A stretch of DNA of 64,000 bases from Diadema setosum. Its lineage: Eukaryota > Echinodermata > Echinoidea > Diadematoida > Diadematidae. Positions 17,401-61,815 of this stretch are shown here, one piece after another (position 1 is the first letter of the stretch; every line of letters starts with the position of its first letter). The notes beneath the pieces were generated by a model, which saw nothing but the letters and a program-made list of their open reading frames with translations, ran no database searches and had not been told where the DNA came from. Both the position numbers and the translations under genes were made by a program. The stretch spans positions 28,534,447 to 28,598,446 of the forward strand of contig NC_092698.1 of NCBI RefSeq assembly GCF_964275005.1, written 5' to 3'.

Positions 17401-18568
17401 AGGGGTCGCAACAAATGCACCTGCTCATATTTCAAGACTTGTTTAAGCAGTCAAGAAGGCACAGTTCCCCCTGGAAGTATTCTGTATCATCTGTGTACAG
17501 TGGTATTATTGCATGTGTACCTTGTGTGAACTAACCATTTTTTTTTTATGCCTCCGCCACGAAGTGGTGCCGGAGGCATTATATTTTCGGGTTGTCCGTC
17601 CGTCCGTACGTACGTCCGTACGTCCGTACGTACGTCCGTACGTCCGTCCGCTTTCGTTTACGCGATAACTTGAGTAATATTTACTGGAATTTTACCAAAC
17701 TTGGTCCAAGTATGAAGTATGATGGGGCAATTATTTGATTAGATTTTGGGTAAAATCAGCTAAAGGTCAAAGGTCAAAGGTCAAGGTCAAATCATGAAAT
17801 TGTATCCGTTTACGCGATAACTCAAGACTGCATCAAGCAAATTTCACCAAACTTTGTTGGAGGATGATGTATGGTAAAACAATTACTTGATTAGTTTTTC
17901 AGTGAAATCGGACAGAGGTCAAAGGTCAAAGATCAAGGTCAAATCCTAAAATTTATCTTTTTACGTGATAACTCAAAACTGGATGAAGCAGCTTTCACCA
18001 AACTTGGTCCAAGGATGATGTATGATGGGACAATTAGTTGAGTAGATTTTAGTGACATTGGCAAGAGGTCAAAGGTCAAAAGGTCAAGGTCAAATGCTAC
18101 AAATGTTGCAATTTCCCCCATATCTATGCAATGCCCCAAAGTTATTTTCTTGAAACTTGGTGTGGACATGTACTACTGCGTAAAGATTCTCCAGAGAGAG
18201 TTTCATGTCATAAGGTCAAAGGTCAAAAGGTCAAAGGTGAGGTGAAAATGTTGCAATATCACTTTTCTCGCAAATGGTTCAATGTATCTTCGTGGAACTT
18301 GGTAAATATGCATGTACTGACTGGCAGGGATTATCTAGGGAATTTAGGGGTCATGGGTCAATAGTCAGGGGTCAAAGGTCAAGGTCAACTCCTCAACATT
18401 TTATTATGTCCCTCATATACTAGTATATGCAATGCTTGCATTATTAGTTTCAAAACTTAATACATGCATTACCTAATGGAGATTCTCCGGGAAATTTCCA
18501 GCCAGAAGGTCAAAGGTCAGAGGTTTAGGGTCAAAGGCCAGGTTTCAATTCCCCCCCCCCAAAAAAAA

Positions 18569-18621
<53 letters not shown>

Positions 18622-21600
18622 TACCATTATTACACTCTTTCTTCATACCTTGGAAATTACTCAATGCATAAACTAATAAAAAGGTCCATCAGAATTCAAG
18701 TAAAAATTCTCAATTCCCCAAATATGTGTACCTGCACTCTTAAAAAAAATTATAGCAAACCCAGATCAAGACATTTCTGACAGACCTGTCATTCAATATT
18801 TTGCCAGTTATGTGAAACTGTCATGGATTACACATTGTGAAGACATTGTACTATACGCCTATTGGGAGAATCATGCATTATGGCGGAGGCATCAGTCGCC
18901 ATAGCGACATTTCTAGTTTTTTTTTTTTTTTTTAGATAAAGGCATTATTTACCATTTGCAGATGAAACAAAAACCCAGTTTAAGTGCTGAAAAATAGTTT
19001 TAAAATGTGAGTTAGGGATAGAAACAACCAATGTAGAAATTGAATAAGTATGATTAATGTTAAGTATTGTGAAATATACAAAATGTGAACATGAGTTAAT
19101 GGTTTCTGGAATAAAACTGTCAACAGTTATGGTTAATTGAGAAAAAGAATGAAATCTACCTATATTTTAGGCTTTAATGCAAAATTTTATTTGGTAGGAT
19201 GTTTTGTGATACAACTAACCAACACATATGCATCAAATGTGATAACTCGAACATTTTTTAAATCACTGCTCCCAATGGTAAACAGTACCTTTAAGCCTTC
19301 AATTTTGAAGGTTTATTGAAGTTAAATCTTTCTCCTTAGGAAAAAAACACCTTGTCACAGGCCATTCAAATCATGAGTTTTGTCTCCACACAGATTCTAC
19401 TGTGCAGGTGTAGAAGTGAATTAATAGTTAACTAAACTTTAGTGAGGTGTGATGAAACAAACACAGAATTACTTGTGCAAACAAATTTACATATCTCTGT
19501 GTTTTTATGCATTTTATTGAAAGGTGGCTTACTTTTTATACTTACTCAGGGACAATGTGAAAGGAAGAGTACACATTCTCCCATTTTTAGGGACCATAGA
19601 TGTTGGGCTGATGTTTTTGTTAATACTATATTCAATTTAAGTAATGTACAGTATCTTTCAAGTTTATAAATCTCAATTTTCGTTGTTTTTTGTAGAACTT
19701 GACATCAGAAATCCATCAAAATTGCAATTTACCAATGGCAGGCAGGTAGATTTATATCATTAGGCTTAAGACAAAGATCTGTAACAGGAGAAACAAACAA
19801 ACTGTGCCCCTTAATTAAATGTATTAATAGATTGCACAAGCATACCTCTAGAGCTTTTCTATTCCATTCGCAGTCATGTTAGGCATTATTTGTCGCTGTG
19901 GCGCCTTTTGTTGTGTGCTGTTTGCACAAAGTCTCAAGTTCTGTCATATGATATGTGAAGTGTGTCGAGTGGATCCACAGTAGTTATATTATGATGGAAG
20001 TGCAAATATGAAGTGCATGTACTCATTCCCATGGAAATTTCAGACTTCTGTTGTGTGTAAGGGGAGAATTATTGATTCAACTCCTGTAAGTGAACTAGCT
20101 ACTCACCTGTTCACGATTAAGGAGTGCTTAATCAATCAACGGCGTGAAATTCAACATGCCGGTACCCTGTTTCATCAACATACAAGGACACCTAAACCTT
20201 GCTTTGTTTGAACAGACCATGATAGAGATCTGCTGACCTCGGGCTGATGCGGTTACCTTGCAATTTATTAAATCACTTTTGTATTCCAATTTATAGAAAA
20301 AAAAAAAAGGTTTCGTACTGTCCCTCATTTCTCTCTCTACTCTTTCTACCCTAACACAGAAGAGGAATAGATTCATAGTTGCAAATCTTTGCTTGTATTG
20401 TGGCACATGTGTACATGCGTTGTTTGCACCGCTTGATATTGTCAACCCAAGAGATATGTTCTTCATTCTTCCAAAGGATTCATCTGGTCTAAGCGGCAGA
20501 CAGATTTTGACTGGTGGGAAATAGAGGTCATTTTCAAGGTCACTGGCAGAGGTCGTGTCGGAGCAGATGGCCTTGTGAGTAATACGGATTAAGAAATGTT
20601 TACCTGAGCAGACTTCACCGTTCAATATCCATTTTTTCTTTTTGCAATTTACAAATGGGTAATGTAGTGGATATGATTAGATGGCATGTTTATGCTTAAT
20701 GTTGTATTTCAAATACAGTGCACTCCCGTTATAACGAAATGCTCGGGACCTGCAGTTTTCTTTCGTTATAACGAAATTTCGTTATAACCGAACAAATACA
20801 ATATATAACGAAAACAAGGAAACCGCGTACGTATATCATATTCTGTTTGCTGAATACTCATCATACACTCGAAAGCTATGTGAAATGTGATGGGATAACT
20901 GTATTACAATAATAAACGCAAGTTCCCCTCAGAAACTGTGCGTGACATAAGGAGCAAACACACACAGTGATGTGAAACGTTCACCAATGCAGAGATGCTA
21001 TAAATGCTTGTTTCGCTCCGTATTTTCGACAGCAATTTGCATTTCGTTATAACGGAGCACATTTCTTGTGTTTTTCTTTGTCTGTGGCGCTCGGAAAAGA
21101 CTTCGTTATAACGGAAATTTCGCTATAACCGTGTTCGTTATAAGCGAATTTTGTACCATAGACTTTAATGGTGATAATTTTGGGACCAGAAGATTTACTT
21201 CGTTATAACGAAATTTCGTTATAACCGTGTTCGTTGTAACGGGAGTGCACTGTAATTGTGCTGAGGATATGGAGCTTTTAGGCTTTTAGGATATGGAATG
21301 CTTCATTTTGTGCCTGTTGTGTGGCACAATGCCTATGATGAGGTGTGATAGACATCGAGGGAAACTTATTGATTCTCATTAACACTCTGTGATGAGTAAT
21401 GCTTGTGTTTCCTCCCTCGCTGTTGGAAGTGTATTCTTATTGTTAGGAGACTTGGTATGCAGGGAGTCCTTTGAATTCACAGCCAAAGCTGACTGCATGT
21501 TTTTAAGGATCTTGAGTCAAAGATTCTAGAATCAACTGTCTCAAAAGTGCTATCAACATCATGTATGAAAAGGCTGCCAATGGTGGTGACAATGTTAGTC

Positions 21601-24600
21601 TGTGTACAGCTGGTCCCTGTCCTCACTACTCTATACTTGTCTTCTACCCCAGGCCATATGGTTCACCCAGGAGCAAGGGGTCGAGGGCCCAGTGTACGGC
21701 AGCTCTGACAAGTGGATCGGCATGGGTCTCTTCTTTGACTCATTCGACAACGACAACCAGCGCAACAACCCGTACATCCTGGTCATCACCAATGATGGCA
21801 CAAAGCAATATGAGCACCACAACGACGGCCTGATGCAGCAGATGGGAGGGTGCATGAGGGACTTCCGAAACAAACCCTTCCCAGTCCGCGCCAAGGTGGA
21901 ATACTACAAGAACATACTCACTGTGAGTAGGGTCATCTTAAGTGTCTCAGTTTCTCCTTGGGTCATCGGTTTAGTTGCATTGTTGAATAGGAATAAGCAA
22001 TTGAGCATACATGTTGATGCCTGTAAAACTTGTATGGCTAATGATGTAACTGATATTTTAACTTGTATGGCAAGAGAGTGTGCGCATGTGTCTGAGTGTA
22101 CACGAAATGTATACTTACAGGCCATTTGTCTGAAAGGGATGTATGTATGTGTTTGTTTGGATTTCTGTTGTAAAGTTTTAGAGGTAGGAGGCCAGGTATT
22201 AGTGTGCCTCATGTGATGTAGTCTTCATTATAGAGAGATGGAGAAAGTAAAGACTAGATGGATTATACAGTTTGGAGCAAATAAATTACTTTCTTTGGTC
22301 AATAATCTTATGCAGGATAGATTTGTCTGCATTCCCTGTTTGTCTTTTTACTGATTTTCTTATTTCCATTAAAATTTCAGGTATACTTTCACAATGGAAT
22401 GACTGGCAGTGACCATGATTATGAGCTGTGTATGAGATCAGAGAATGTGTATCTACCAAGCAGAGGATACTTTGGCATCTCCGCTGCAACGGGAGGACTT
22501 GCAGGTGAGATGAATTTTTAGGCAACCTTTTTGATGACCTTTTGCTGAATGAAGTGCAATACTCACAGAAATATATAATACATGTTTAATCAAAGGAATT
22601 GTGGCTCACAAGAACAAGTGTGGAAGGTTCCCATAGCATACTGTAAGTTCAATAAAAGATGCACTCAAAAAGATACAGAATTTTGGAAAAATAAAAGTAA
22701 GGTGAATAACCCTTGCAAATGACAGTTGCTGATTTAGCATTTCCTTGATTAAATGTACCACAATGTATGATATACTTGATGACAGTGATTTTGAAAGTTT
22801 AAGAACTTGAAGTGTTTCTCTTAAATCATACTCGAAACTCCAAAAATAGTACCCTCAAGAGAACTAGATAGTGGCCTTTTATAGCTGTAAATGGCATCTG
22901 TGAATTTCTACACTTTGTTCAATCCTCGCACATACAACACACATTTTTGTTGTGATGGTATTGAATTCATGAGTTAACCAATATTCTCAAATTCAAAACT
23001 TTTAATAAATGCAAACAGAGGGAAACTGACCAGAAATATATATGATATCGATGACTTATATGCTGATGGAATCCCATTTTCTGTGTTCATTTTTTCATTC
23101 AAAATAACAACTTGTGAAAACATGACCTAACATGACACAAATACTTTGCATTTAATCTATAAATAAGAAATTGCAAACTTTTGTCATGAAAAAGAGTGAT
23201 AATTCTTTTTCATTCTGTCATTGTGATTCTCACTTGCAAATTCAGCCACGTGGGAAATTGTCTTATAGAACATGTGGTGCATGCAGTATGTATATGAGCT
23301 TTCAATCATAGCACTTCTACAGCCCTGTTACACTTAGTTGAACTTCCTCTGTGAAAAGTTTTCATATATGGCATAGTTAAGTTATCATCTTTAGATACTC
23401 CTCGTATAAATTTTTAGTAAAATATCTCTCAAGAGATAAAATAAATCCAGGCAAAATGATAGAACACATTTGCTACATATTTACTATCTGCTAAAAACCT
23501 GCTGTGTACAGCATGCATGCATGTTGCTCTAACCTTTCTTTTAGAATGCGCCGGTCATTTGTGTGTATGTGTGTGTATGTTTTGCTTTCTTGCCATAAAC
23601 TTTCTCAAATGTGTATAAAGATTGCTTGTGATGTGTCAATTGATAGAATGAAACTTGTAGAAACAATGTGGTCTGAAGGAAAAAATATTGCCAGAACATG
23701 TGATAATATTGCAATTTATATCATCTTTTGTGTTGTTTTCTTGATCTCCAGATGACCATGATGTCATGAAATTCCTAACTCACAGTCTACAGACTCCAGA
23801 ATCTCGGGTATGAATGGAAATTATGCTTTCAGAAAGAATTGGCATTGACAATAATACACATATATATATATACCAGCCATTATCTTCATTTCTTATATGA
23901 GCCAAGTGTCAGTTGTAGTTTTAATATTTAAGCGATCTTATGTTTTGAGACAACAGAATTGAATATCCAATGTTAAAACTTGACTAGTTCATGAGTGATT
24001 TGGATTTTATTCCATTGCATAGTTACATGCAGTCTCACTCTGTTGCCATGGTTGCTTAGCTTATTTCAAACGGTAAATAATTTGTGTACCCACTGTCTCC
24101 CATTTTAGACTGATCAAGATGGATTCATCACAGATGAAGAGGCCAAGAAATTCAAAGATGAGTTTGATGAGTTCCAAGGAAAGCTCCAAAAGCAGAGAGA
24201 AGAGTAAGTACACTGCAGTCAGTTTCTCTCAAAGTGGTTGAATTTAGGGAACCTGTAGGCAGCTGTTTTTGATGAACAAATTGTCAGCTGTGTAGACTGT
24301 ATCTGTGGAGACTGTATAAATGAAAATTGATCAGGCTACTGTTTGCTGTATGACAGTTCAAGAATTCTTCCTATTTATTAGGTGATCCGAGTATCCTCTC
24401 GGATCACCTTCTGTATCTGTACTGATTCTTTGTTTTTCTTCTTCTTTCTCCGCAAAAGTTGTGTATGGATTAGCTCAGAAAGTCCTCTTCCTATCAATGT
24501 CAAAATCATACCATATATGTATCATGTCCCAAAGACGGCAATCGAACTAAAATCAAAGTGATCAGTCGACCGTGACGTCACTATGACGTCATTATATGAA

Positions 24601-27600
24601 AACACATTCTCAATCATATGTCATTAATGGAATGGAATTTTTCGATGAAATTTACGTCACATATATTTCAAATTATGCGCATTCTACTCATATTTTCAGA
24701 ATTCATATTTTCCCTTAAAACGTGCGCGTACGCGCGCGTTGAAATATTTGCATGCTCAAATCGAGCTCAAATTTTTTTTGCACACGTTTCAGATCATTTG
24801 GAGCATTTTTTGAAAAATTGGAAAAATTGGACGGACGCGTACGCGCGCGCCCATATACGCACGCACAGCTCATATGCAATAGAAATTTTCCGTTTTTTTA
24901 CTTTGATCGGATACCTGAAAAGTCAAGGAATATTTTTACCAAGTTTCAAGTCAATCCGACTCAATATGACGTCACACGGGCCCGTCAAAGTTGAAATTCC
25001 GCGCGCGCGTCAATGGCGATATACAGTGCAACAATGCCAAAAAAACTGCCAATTTTAAATCCGATTTTACTCGTCAGGATGGACGGTGACCCCCCATTTT
25101 CTTTACATATTCTGAAAGCTGATGAGTTGTACATGTCATTTCATGGGTTGGCAATGCTGGAAAAATGATTAAAATATATGAAATTTCTTAATAAAGTTAA
25201 AAAAGTAAATTTTCAAAATGACGTCATCAAATTTCAAGTTCATTCAAGCATATCTCACTTATTCTTTAGTTGATTTTCGTCCAAATTTCAATATGTTGTA
25301 GCTTATTAAATGGTCTTTCAGATATATAATAACAACAATTTGATTGGATGACGGCATCACCTCGTAACAAGGGATTAAAAGTAACATTGTTAAATTTGAC
25401 CAGTTTACGTGTTATCTCTATGGGAGTGCAGTTTTTCTGGAAATGAAAACTGACATGACTATCTTTATCGAGCACTAGCTCACTTATGCTTCGGTGAATT
25501 TCTCCCATATTTTAGTATGTTGTAGCTGAGACTTTGGGCTATCGTTAGTGTGCCCTTCGTTTTTTCATACGGAGTCGGCATCATGCTCAAAAACCTGGTT
25601 GAAATTAAAGCTTATCTTCCATGTATTTTCATATTCCTTTCTTTCTGCAACTTTCTTTGCAATAACTCAAGAAAAACAAGCTCTATCAGCCCAATATTTT
25701 GCACATGTTTAGTTTATGTCACGTGCATTATTTTATAAAATAACAACTACTTGATCGGGCACCTTCTTGGGTATGTAAATTAGGGTCAAAGGTCAAAAAT
25801 GTTTCATCCTGTATCTTGGTGAATACATGTCTTATCTTTCCCATATTTTGCATACGTAAAGACCATGTTACAAGAATCATTTCACAAAATAACCACTTTT
25901 TGCTCAGACGCCATCTTGTCTGTGCAAAGTAGGGTCAAAGGTCATATGTACTTCTTTCTTTATCTTCATTATGACGTGTTATCTCTATGGGAGGGAATTT
26001 TTCTAGATGTGAAAATTGACGTGATTGTCTTTATCTACGACTAGCTCACTTACCCTTCGGTGAATTTCTTCCAGATTTTAGTATGTTGTAGCCAATTTAA
26101 TACTCTTTAAGTTCTATTTATCAAAAATTTAATCGGATGATGTCTTCACCTCGTGAAAATGGATATAATGTAACCTTGTCAAATTTAACCAGTTTACGTG
26201 TTATCTCTATGGGAGGGAATTTTTCTGGAAATGAAAATTGACATGACGGTCTTTATCGAGCACTAGCTCACTTACTCTTCGGTGAATTTCTCCCAGATTT
26301 TAGTATGTTGTAGCTGAGACTTTGAGCTGTCGTCAAGGTTCGCTCTATTTTTTCATACGACGCCGAGATCACGTCAAAAAACTTGGTTGAAATCAAACTT
26401 ATCTTCGATGTATTGAGATATTTCTTTCTTTCTGCAACTTTCTCTGCAATAACTCAAGAAAAACACCCCCTATCATCCCCATATTTTGCACATGTTTAGT
26501 TCATGTCACGTACATTATTTCATAAAATAACAACTACTTGATCAGACGTCATCTTGGGTATGTAAATTAGGGTCAAAAGTCATAAATGTATCATCTTGTA
26601 TCTTGGTGAATACATGTCTTATCTTTTCCATATTTTGCACACGTAAAGACCATGTTCCAAGGATCATTTCACAAAATAACCACTTTTTGCTCAGATGCCA
26701 TCTTGGCTGTGCAAAGTGGGGTCAAAGGTCATATGTACTTCTTTCTTGTCAAATTTAACCAGTTTACGTGTTATCTCTATGGGGAATTTCTGGAAATGAA
26801 AATTGACATGACGGTCTTTATCGAGTACTAGCTCACTTACTCTTCGGTGAATGACTCCCAGATTTTAATATGTTGTAGCTGAGACTTTGGGCTATCGCCA
26901 GTGTCCTCTCTATTTTTCATACGAGGCCGAGATCACGTCCAAAAACTTGGTTGAAATCAAAGCTTATCTTCGATGTATTGAGATATTTCTTTCTTTCTGC
27001 AACTTTCTTTACAATAACTCAAGAAAAACAGGCCTTATCACCCCCATATTTTGCACATGTTTAGTTCATGTCACGTACATTATTTCATAAAATAACAACT
27101 ACTTGCTCAGACGTCATCTTTGGTATGTAAATTAGGGTCAAAGGTCATAAATGTATCATCCTGTATCTTGGTGAATACATGTCCTATCTTTCCCATATTT
27201 TGCACACGTAAAGACCATGTTACAAGGATCATTTCACAAAATAACCACTTTTTGCTCAGATGCCATCTTTGGTGTGCAAATTGGGGTCAAAGGTCAAATA
27301 TACTTCATTCTGTATCTTCGTTAGTGTATACGGAATTGTGTACCATAGATGGCAGGTCTGACTCCCTTTTCTAAATGAGAATCCAAACATCACACGGCCA
27401 ATGTCCACTAAACACAGATGAAACCAGTATGGTCATGCCTATTGGGATCAGGAGACTCAAATCGTTGATTTACGAACAGATCGGATCACCTAATTTGTCA
27501 GTGTTGACAAATTCCAAGTCTAGTTTGAATTGATAATGTAAGTGAGATTTGAGTCAGTAAGGAAATGTTTTATCTATTTGAAAAGAATGAAAGTATGTAT

Positions 27601-30600
27601 TTACAAAGTAATCTAAAATATTATGCATATGTATGAATTTGACATGAGTAAATATGACAATTGCATTTCTTTTTCTGTATTTGATTTGGTAGATGATCAT
27701 CATGTGCTAGTCTTATGAATCAGAAGTCTGATTAGGATTGCCATGTTGCAGTCTGTGTTGACACTACTGCATGTGTACTCATTGTTCTACATTTTTTATT
27801 CCCACACAGTTTCCGACAGCAACACCCAGACAAAGTGAGGGACGAATATGAAGATACAGATTCATTCGTGAGTTGGCTTTCCATTCTGTTGCTTAAAGGC
27901 ATTATTTAACATCTGCAAATGAAACAAAAACCCTGCTTTAGTGCTGCAAAATAGTTCTAAAATGTGAGTTAGGGATAGAAACAACCAATGTAAAAAGTGT
28001 TAATCAGTATAATCAATGTTAAGTATTGAAAAATATGCAAAATGTGAACAATAGTTATAATAAAATTGTTCCCAGAATAAACCATCTACAGTTATTGTTT
28101 ATTGAGAAAAATAGTGAAATCTTACATTTTAGGCTTTATTGCAAAATTTTTAAAGAGAAAATGAACTGTATTGCTCTTTAACAACTTTGTTATGTCAAGA
28201 ATTTATTGCTTCTGAAATTACCAGGATACCTCCCATGTTTGGAAAGGTTTTATGTGTGAGAAAAAATATGTCATGTCATTGGGGGTATTTTTAGAATGGT
28301 ATCTAATCTTGTTTTGCCTGTTTTCCCCTTTGCAGTTTGAAGATGATTTTACAAGAGAATTGAAGCTCATACTCAACGCACAGAATTCTCTCATGACTCA
28401 AGTCAAGTGAGTATCTGAACCCATTGTCTCCTTCACTTGTTGATGAAACGTGGGGAAAAATGAGTGGAAACAAATGTGTTGTGGCTACAGTAGATTGTAA
28501 ATATCAACTTTTGAAATGGTTCTGCCTATTTTGTTTCAAAAGTTTGACTAATTCAATATATCCCTGCAGATGCAAACATGTATTTTGTAGATGGTTGATA
28601 AATGTAAGCTGAAAGGGCCATACAAATAACAAGAAAGGTACATTGAAGAAGGAAAAAAGAAAGAAAAAAAAATTGTAGTATTGTCTTGGCCTAAGCATAA
28701 ATCATGTTTGGATTGTGTAAGCATACCCCATTCCACGAGTAGTTTGCTGTACAAGATTTTTAACTAATTCCGTTGTCCTTATGAATTTATCAATCGTAAT
28801 CTGTAACAAATGACGAGAATAGTGTCGGCCACTCTCTTTCTTGTGTTAAGAGCAAAGTTACAAGAGCTATCACTGACTATATGATGTGCACATACAAAGC
28901 AAGCCAACTTCTGACATGGAAGGCATCCAAGCAACAGTAACAAAATGAATGTGTGGAGTTTGAAATGCTTTTTCTAAGAGAAAATACAGGCTGTACCTAG
29001 AGTTAAGATATTACAAATGAAAGGAAGTATGCATTAAGTTCAATGACTTCTCTCTTAACTTTCATATCTGTAACTTTTTGTGGTAACAGATATGTTTGCT
29101 GAAGACATTCATAATGGCAATGCTGTCATGCAGAGGTAAAATATGACATTAATGCCATCCATTGATTGACCCCCTGTAGAATGCTGGGCAATAAGTTAGA
29201 CGAAATAGTGGGAAGGCAGGAGAGAACGCTGTCTCTCATCTCGTCTGGTCAGCCTCACGGTGGTGGCAGTGCACCCCAGCAGGTCACCGGAAGCGCAGCT
29301 CCTGTGATGCAGAGACACGAGGTAGACTCCATACTCAACACACAGAGGGAGCTCCAACAGAGTGTCAGAGATATCAGGTAGGATATCCGTACCATCAGTT
29401 TGAATGATGTCGGCATCTTTTGTACATTAGCTAAAAAAAAAAGAGGAAAGAGCGTGAACCATTGCACTGAGGAATATTTGTGAGAGAGATGTGTATCTCC
29501 AATGCATCCAAGAGAGAGACAACCTCATCATATGAGAATTAAGATGAGACATTTTTGTAGAAAGTAGATGTCTTGTAGAAGTCAATTCCATGTCTGTGCA
29601 GGACTTAGATGAGTTGATACTCCTTATAAGTTTTGATTGTTTTGTTTTTGTTTTTGGTAGTAACAAACATGAGTCTAGTCTTCTCTCCAGTTCTGAAAGA
29701 TTTGACTTGGTTAAAGTAGGCTGATTCTGTGTACTAAAGTGGCAGTGAATAGCCCCAAGTAATCAATAGATGACACATTGAAGTGAAAAAAAGTTTGATG
29801 TGTAAATATGAAGAACATAAAACAAAAAAGAGATGGAAGGTTATTGAGGGCAAATCTAAGAAAAGTGGAGTAAAGGAAGTGATGACATGTGTGTTAAACC
29901 AGGTTTATCTTATTTGCATTTCCAAACATGTCACTGCTTGCTCCAGTTGAGCTGCCTTAGGCATTCTTTTTTTTTTTCTGTAAACTTATCATGTTTCTCC
30001 ACCCCAGGAAAAGAAAAACATTAACCCAAATTCTCATCCCCTTCCCCCTCACATGTGGAAAGTAGGAATGGTGATCTAACCTGGTGAACACTGAAGTTTG
30101 AGGACTAGAGGTTATTTATTTATTTATTTTTTGTCACTCTATTGGTGTCTCTGTTCCTCAGGAGTGTAGTTGGGGATGTCCAGACCAAGGCGGGCCTTAT
30201 ATACAACAGGCAGCCAACCCAAGGTGGCACTCAGATGAATCAGGGCAACCCCCTGGTCAACCATGAGATGCAGGACAAAATCAACTCCATACAGGACCAA
30301 GTCCTCCAGCTTGTTCGCCGACCGGAGGTGAGTGGTTGAGTGGTGGAGGTGACCGGAGGTGACCTTCATGAGGTCTGGCAGACAAACTGACACTTAACCC
30401 ATTCTATATGGGAACCTGTTAGTCTGTGTATGAAGTGTGTGGGGATTTCAGTATTCAGTTTGGAACCGGTTAATAGTATTTCTGTCTCAGTCTACCTTGT
30501 CTCTGTTTAGCTTTCTGTGAAAAAAAGTTTGGTTGCCATTTTCTGGTTAAATGAGTTCAGATATTTCATTGGCATTGGAAAGAAGTGTTTAAGAAATGTT

Positions 30601-46485: not shown

Positions 46486-61815
<15,330 letters not shown>

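Follow-up and report, generated by a model that had tools for sequence, protein, structure and literature searches.

Two elements of Helentron type with a common end plan and different arms in the genome of Diadema setosum

The window analysed here, a 64,000-nucleotide stretch of the Diadema setosum genome (C14:28534447-28598446), contains two elements that share one end design and carry different arm sequences. A first-pass annotation of the window compared both with Helentron-derived elements and proposed that a single transposition machine recognises the structure of their ends rather than the sequence of their arms. The locus therefore raises two questions: what kind of element these are, and whether one enzyme or several would move them. 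We searched 913 Mb of the host genome in 102 contigs for copies of each element and for genes encoding a candidate transposase. With a probability of roughly 0.93, both elements are non-autonomous Helentrons (HINEs), members of the Helitron2 branch of the rolling-circle transposons, moved by a Helentron Rep-helicase-endonuclease.

A common end plan with different arms

Both elements follow one layout, consisting of a 5' hairpin, a single 3' arm, a 3' hairpin and CTAG, with T as the next base (Table 1). Asymmetric terminal inverted repeats and a hairpin at each end are present in both, as is the Helentron/HINE anatomy of a 5' palindromic repeat, a single 3' copy of that repeat and a near-terminal 3' palindrome. 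The complete layout occurs twice in the window, counting both strands, and in none of 100 dinucleotide shuffles, a result that is optimistic because the limits of the scan were chosen with both elements already in view. The common plan with differing arms described in the first-pass annotation is thus recovered in full. Folded as DNA, the four ends have z scores of -4.5 and -3.5 (element 1) and -7.5 and -3.3 (element 2); in the same order, 0, 0, 0 and 1 of 200 shuffles each fold equally well. The bounds first given for element 1 (17548-18916) and the 3' end of element 2 (27523) are exact, and element 2 begins one base later than first described, at 24380. The 5' palindrome ascribed to both elements is a perfect 12-bp stem in element 2; that of element 1 is imperfect, with a 9-bp stem and a further 4 bp separated by a 3-nt bulge.

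Table 1. Features of the two elements, in positions of the window
Feature	Position	Strand	Basis or remark
Element 1, HINE (non-autonomous Helentron-type)	17548..18916	+	layout scan, genome copies
5' hairpin, element 1: arm ATGCCTCCGCCA and near-complement	17548..17579	+	-12.1 kcal/mol, z -4.5
GTCC/GTAC microsatellite behind the 5' end of element 1	17594..17650	+	
Tandem modules of ~151 bp with AGGTCAAAGGTCA cores, element 1	17688..18104	+	TRF, period 151 x 2.7 copies
Lone 3' arm TGGCGGAGGCAT, element 1	18881..18892	+	
3' hairpin GTCGC-CATA-GCGAC, element 1	18895..18908	+	copies differ in loop
CTAG 3' terminus of element 1, then T	18913..18916	+	
Element 2, non-autonomous Helentron (HINE)	24380..27523	+	layout scan, copies, Rep-bearing relative
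5' hairpin, element 2, arm AGGTGATCCGAG	24380..24409	+	12-bp perfect stem, -13.1 kcal/mol, z -7.5
Modules of ~150 bp and larger internal duplications, element 2; GGTCAAAGGTCA in several modules	25404..27318	+	
Lone 3' arm TCGGATCACCT, element 2	27481..27491	+	
3' hairpin AATTTGTCA-GTGT-TGACAAATT, element 2	27492..27513	+	z -3.3
CTAG 3' terminus of element 2, then T	27520..27523	+	

The internal modules of about 150 bp reported at first are also found by TRF, with a period of 151 in element 1 and a period of 149 (1.9 copies, at 27043-27318) in element 2. At the sequence level, homology between the two elements beyond the shared plan is unproven. Direct alignment of the modules places 231 columns in register and scores 131, compared with a best score of 139 among 200 shuffles; when the AGGTCA cores are masked, 81 of 200 shuffles score as well. 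A profile built from 65 element-1 modules matches element 2 with an E value of only 0.85, and one of 200 shuffled sequences does better. As neither the alignment nor the profile beats the best shuffle, a common origin of the two sets of modules was dropped as an explanation. An 11-mer, GCCTATTGGGA, lies upstream of both 3' arms, and 20 of 500 shuffles give an equal or better match.

Rfam at gathering thresholds gave no match in the window, and Pfam gave none for 24600-25058, the sole listed open reading frame of at least 110 codons inside element 2. A scan for the layout in 357,850 bases, mostly DNA fetched with these two families, yielded no third arm family. A full-text literature search with the arm and end strings matched 204 papers, and the 15 of them that were listed look unrelated by title.

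Element boundaries and target site

The predicted boundaries are common to genomic copies of both elements, as an alignment of copies had been expected to reveal. For element 1, 40 of 1681 candidate 5' ends and 40 of 851 candidate 3' ends were scored, and identity over 91 bp is found among 24 of the 40 listed 3' ends. The fetched loci and the window together provide 34 rows of complete copies, 1158-1417 bp in length, of which 32 are distinct, the window copy having been counted three times. TT precedes the 5' arm in 33 of 33 distinct flanks, and T follows CTAG in 39 of 39. Among 1188 exact-pattern 3' ends genome-wide, the next base is T in 1176 and another base in 12; the hairpin loop varies among these ends (CATA, CGTA, TGTA and others), and the stem is fixed by the search pattern, which makes its constancy there uninformative. 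Element-1 ends are of the form TTATGCCTCCG...CTAG.

For element 2, 40 of 2834 candidate 5' ends and 40 of 1378 candidate 3' ends were scored; from each list of 40, 20 ends were picked by hand and fetched. All 20 fetched 5' ends read TT followed by AGGTGATCC, and all 20 fetched 3' ends read CTAG followed by T, with TT in 17 of these. In distinct flanks, TT stands ahead of the 5' arm in 24 of 24 and T after CTAG in 19 of 19. Genome-wide, 2132 of 2137 exact-pattern 3' ends have T as the next base and five have another. A 3' end lies immediately ahead of eight of the 20 fetched 5' ends (one of these 3' ends belongs to a variant ending in CTCG), and three of the 20 fetched 3' ends abut a 5' end in the head-to-tail junction CTAG-TT-AGGTG. 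On contig C1, 49 of 100 listed element-2 ends are grouped in six runs, each of 4 to 12 ends on a single strand and often with 2-2.6 kb between neighbours; element 2 therefore forms head-to-tail arrays. These arrays may derive from rolling-circle multimers or from insertion next to existing CTAG-TT ends.

Empty sites for element 1 are paralogous and cover three insertions (L009, L013 and L038) in the fetched DNA and the window. They provide 24 junction-spanning comparisons, 22 of them distinct, at 75-90% identity. In 15 of the 24, the occupied site is longer by exactly two bases on the 5' side (within 12 bases) and of equal length on the 3' side; the other nine differ by +6/+3 (three rows, one sequence), +1/0, +4/0, 0/0, +2/+10, 0/+3 and 0/-4. 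The host DNA of two of the three insertions is itself other element-1 DNA. Element 2 provides one insertion, in a dispersed repeat, where AATT-element-TTTAC is matched by an empty AATTTAC, so that two T's are extra. This copy spans C2:33540387-33543531 and was taken for an element-2 copy because its ends lie one element length apart; the site was judged by eye, BLAST having stopped at the junction, and the match on the left is about 10 bases long. An 8-base stretch on the left of this copy is not repeated on the right and is absent from the paralogues. The element 2 of the window itself has unique flanks, and no empty site for it is visible.

In most comparisons, element 1 is inserted in T runs without target duplication. 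The insertion between T's without duplication that the first-pass annotation predicted is thus seen in 15 of 24 comparisons for element 1 and in one short case for element 2. Because the empty sites show an extra TT, the T's appear to be partly owned by the element, and the comparisons suggest that they belong to it. TT at 17546-17547 is then probably the first two bases of element 1, and TT at 24378-24379 probably the first two of element 2. Partial ownership of the T's at a TT target has been described for Helentrons and HINEs (Thomas & Pritham 2014, PMC4067079).

Ends and target also bear on two other classes of transposon. Inverted arms and high copy number are what MITE-like cut-and-paste elements with ordinary terminal inverted repeats would display, and DINE-1-like elements were once filed as MITE-like by earlier authors (PMC4067079). 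However, the 3' arms are not terminal, lying 24 nt and 32 nt inside the elements, CTAG followed by T stands at nearly all ends, a Rep locus carries element-2 ends, and the empty sites contradict a cut-and-paste origin by their lack of a target duplication; we regard this reading as extremely improbable. Canonical Helitron1 elements, with 5' TC, 3' CTRR and insertion between A and T, are very unlikely as well. The CTAG terminus is compatible with CTRR and a 3' hairpin is present, but the 5' TC is absent, a 5' hairpin is present and insertion is into T runs, so that both the target and the 5' end contradict this assignment, as do a Rep motif of Helentron form and an endonuclease at the C-terminus of the candidate transposase.

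Rep-helicase genes and their relation to the elements

Helitron_like_N, the Pfam Rep family of Helitrons, has 49 matches at 46 positions in the genome, and open frames of 3276-3517 codons are reported for 21 of the 49. One Rep copy, on C18, contains a stop and was searched for domains in pieces. Its frame includes two OTU stretches, a stretch resembling Herpes_teg_N, the Rep domain, a PIF1 helicase and a C-terminal Exo_endo_phos domain. The combination of OTU, Rep, PIF1 helicase and endonuclease in this broken copy is the Helentron set. The second piece of this C18 frame is matched by two stretches of the Helraiser transposase (PDB 7lcc), most strongly at residues 177-365. Helraiser is a canonical bat Helitron. 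Rep motif 2 has the RGSPH form, with S between G and P, at 30 of 30 fetched loci, a form that is diagnostic of Helentrons (PMC4067079, section 7). Two variants of the motif are present, IEFQQRGSPHTH in 27 loci and IEFQMRGSPHVH in three, and the latter three form a second, distant clade in the Rep tree. The frames on C1 and C18 are 90% identical across the 541 bp compared, and their flanks have one 150-bp stretch in common, at 74.5% identity; frame and flanks can therefore part.

There is a strong association between Rep loci and the ends of element 2. Eight of the 46 Rep positions have listed element-2 ends at most 35 kb away, giving 11 pairs compared with 0.28 expected if the 80 listed ends were scattered uniformly, a count to which both ends of one copy can contribute, so that the pairs are not all independent. 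No pair was found within the same distance among 80 listed element-1 ends. At seven of the eight loci, the Rep gene runs opposite in direction to element 2. On C1, where the element-2 ends are listed completely up to 39.4 Mb, all three full-length Rep frames in that range lie less than 17 kb from an element-2 3' end, a proximity shared by just 4.7% of the sequence; the lone Rep fragment lies 100 kb from one. For the element-1 matches listed on C1, the minimum distance to any of the four Rep positions is 37 kb. On C12, one element-1 end that is not followed by T lies 29 kb from a Rep, a single case that is close to chance.

The most complete candidate is on C17, the sole locus at which element-2-type ends are seen on both sides of a Rep gene, with about 19 of its 30 kb read. 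Read in the direction of the ends, the 3' end of a further copy is followed by TT and a 5' hairpin of element 2. Next come a nested element 2 and what remains of the element-2 body, then the Rep gene, which lies on the opposite strand, a 34-bp minisatellite, an element-2 3' region, CTAG followed by T, and the next 5' end. The candidate is about 30.2 kb long (25.8 kb when the nested copy is subtracted), and its Rep frame is reported open at 3446 codons. The nested element 2 sits in a TTC tract, where length differences are not judgeable. Three other loci are less complete. On C3, an element-2 body lies on the predicted side of the Rep gene, and element-2 sequence is absent from the 6.5 kb covered upstream of its frame. 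On C18, the Rep frame has an element-2-type 3' end at a distance of 2.55 kb, and the element-2 body is absent from the stretches read on the far side. At C1:14829700, the 10.5 kb covered next to the frame contain no element-2 sequence, and same-strand element-2 runs flank the locus at -14.8 and +34 kb.

Because Rep loci associate with its ends, on both sides at C17, element 2 is a HINE with a candidate autonomous partner. Element 1 qualifies as a HINE on the grounds of its anatomy and target. For the Rep-helicase element with shared ends that the first-pass annotation proposed to look for, element 2 has a candidate in the C17 Rep gene flanked by element-2-type ends; no partner of element 1 was found within 35 kb of its listed ends.

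The same pattern bears on whether one machine reads the structure of both sets of ends. Retention of the plan with differing arms favours that proposal, and the count of 0 element-1 against 11 element-2 Rep pairs weighs against it. We give even odds to the alternative that each element is moved by a different Helentron lineage whose Rep reads its own arms, the plan being a product of common descent. This alternative fits the clustering of element-2 ends near Rep loci, which the listed element-1 ends do not share, and the second, distant Rep clade (3 of 30 fetched loci) with its own motif-2 variant. However, a Rep locus with element-1 arms was likewise not found, and the C1 and C18 frames, alike over 541 bp with little in common between their flanks, indicate that frame and flanks are separable. 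A first count placed seven of the eight Rep loci near element 2 in one 15-row clade of the 30-row tree (Fisher p 0.035, for a clade picked after the fact). C1:14829700 falls outside this clade and also lies in an element-2 array; element 2 is therefore not tied to one Rep clade. More tentatively, one Helentron lineage might move families with unrelated arms by reading the 5' hairpin, the 3' hairpin and CTAG followed by T, with the arms acting as a zip code that lets an element's own ends meet. A single enzyme could serve both arm families, and two related enzymes account for the data equally well.

Known relatives and a proposed transposition pathway

Several described systems resemble the elements in the window. 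In Helitron2 (PMC3627910), a 5' arm lies 0-2 bp from the end and forms a hairpin with a downstream complement, and a 3' arm lies just ahead of the 3' hairpin. Its non-autonomous Helitron-1N families insert after T's with no target duplication, some members have a reversed Rep gene, and pairing of the arms was proposed as an end signal. In contrast to the C18 frame with its Exo_endo_phos domain, Helitron2 has a Rep-helicase without endonuclease according to PMC4067079, and CTAG as a word is missing from the text of PMC3627910. Helentrons and HINEs (PMC4067079) have palindromic sub-terminal repeats of 12-15 bp, a 3' palindrome, tandem repeats in some members, a TT target, a Rep-helicase fused to an endonuclease and the RGSPH motif; a minus-orientation Rep is described in D. 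ananassae, and OTU proteases occur in some. Unlike the mite open reading frame of 1,881 aa (PMC4067079), the frames found here are single, approximately 3,300-3,500 codons long and inclusive of OTU, and the C17 candidate reaches about 30 kb with its nested copy.

In the genome of the Pacific oyster, 11 Cg_HINE elements were told apart (PMC7492417). These have 11-12 bp arms with an inverted copy at the left, a right arm followed by a palindrome, a GTCY/GTCC microsatellite, satellite-like tandem repeats and TT insertion; they differ in that a Rep partner is not named in the available text. FoHeli of Fusarium oxysporum (PMC5148889) has a reversed Rep and doubled 5' ends, both explained by self-insertion, and the nested copy at C17 illustrates this explanation. 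The doubled 5' ends at C17 and C18 resemble those of FoHeli. FoHeli differs in being fungal and in having different termini.

The end plan, insertion at TT, the coexistence of several arm families in one genome, GTCC microsatellites, tandem modules and tandem copies are thus already in print (PMC3627910, PMC4067079, PMC7492417), the layout itself having been published in 2013 and 2014. Retention of structure despite sequence change was likewise put forward in 2013, on the basis of compensatory changes between a pair of related elements (PMC3627910). The two elements in the window are of a known kind, being well-preserved Helentrons, and do not define a new type. Boundaries common to the copies and insertion in T runs with no duplication in most comparisons uphold the Helentron/HINE reading of the first-pass annotation.

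These parts suggest how the elements would move. A Helentron Rep-helicase-endonuclease would nick at the 5' TT-hairpin, which would serve as the start mark, and one strand would be peeled off through the 3' hairpin and the CTAG that precedes T. Once the copy is complete, the 3' arm may pair with the 5' arm and open the 5' hairpin, so that arm pairing and the 3' hairpin together would constitute the end mark, with CTAG followed by T terminating transfer. Arm pairing as an end signal is the model of Bao & Jurka 2013 (PMC3627910). The peeled strand would then be joined into a new site, between two T's and with no duplication of the target. Element 1 may be served by the same enzyme or a close relative.

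With thousands of exact-pattern ends and 21 reported open Rep-type frames, this genome is a usable test bed. Its two arm families with the same target allow one to ask whether the enzyme reads the sequence of the arms or the structure of the ends, a question already raised in the literature.

Arrays and compound ends of element 2

The 3′ ends of element 2, the longer of the two non-autonomous Helentron-type elements, form head-to-tail arrays on contig C1, with 4 to 12 ends per same-strand run and a spacing that is often 2–2.6 kb among the matches listed. Doubled 5′ ends also occur, in which a 57–71 bp stub is followed at once by another full 5′ end (genomic loci L069:228-2356 and L122:199-303); these look as if element 2 had inserted into itself, and they adjoin Rep loci on contigs C18 and C17. 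At locus L084, a different 3′ end (TATCACCTAACTCGTC...GACGAGT...CTCG|TT) precedes an element-2 5′ end and is another arm/hairpin variant.

Neighboring features

Noncoding DNA adjoining the C3 and C17 Rep frames is 84% identical over 214 bp to window positions 60208–60421. Elsewhere, copies of the dispersed AAAGGCATAATTTACCATTTGCAGATGAAAC... repeat are the target of one element-1 copy and one element-2 copy. The TA-flanked element, presumably a pogo/Tigger-type non-autonomous element from its appearance, contains GTTATAACGA palindromes.

Features in the window and elsewhere in the genome (G000)
Feature	Location	Remarks
AAAGGCATAATTTACCATTTGCAGATGAAAC... repeat, copy 1	window ~18937-19176	just downstream of element 1
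AAAGGCATAATTTACCATTTGCAGATGAAAC... repeat, copy 2	window ~27894-28122	just downstream of element 2
~540-bp element	window 20716-21252	inverted ends CAGTGCACTCCCGTTATAACGAA...GTAACGGGAGTGCACTG; TA on flanks
ORF with ERGIC-53/LMAN1-like lectin exon	window 21599-22216 (+)	between elements 1 and 2
Matches of window 60208-60421	L115:8412-8625, L116:1001-1214	noncoding; beside C3 and C17 Rep frames
Element-2 3′-end array	G000:C1:180939-208455	14 kb from a Rep frame
Element-2 3′-end array	G000:C1:14793842-14891580	surrounds Rep frame of opposite direction
Element-2 3′-end array	G000:C1:20708574-20714758	
Element-2 3′-end array	G000:C1:25313602-25391364	

Receptor-type repeats in the modules

The internal ~150-bp modules of element 1 (window 17688–18104) and element 2 (window 25404–27318) contain AGGTCAAAGGTCA-type repeats; nuclear receptors, RXR/HNF4 among them, bind direct repeats of this form. 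The many copies of both elements could seed nuclear-receptor-type sites.
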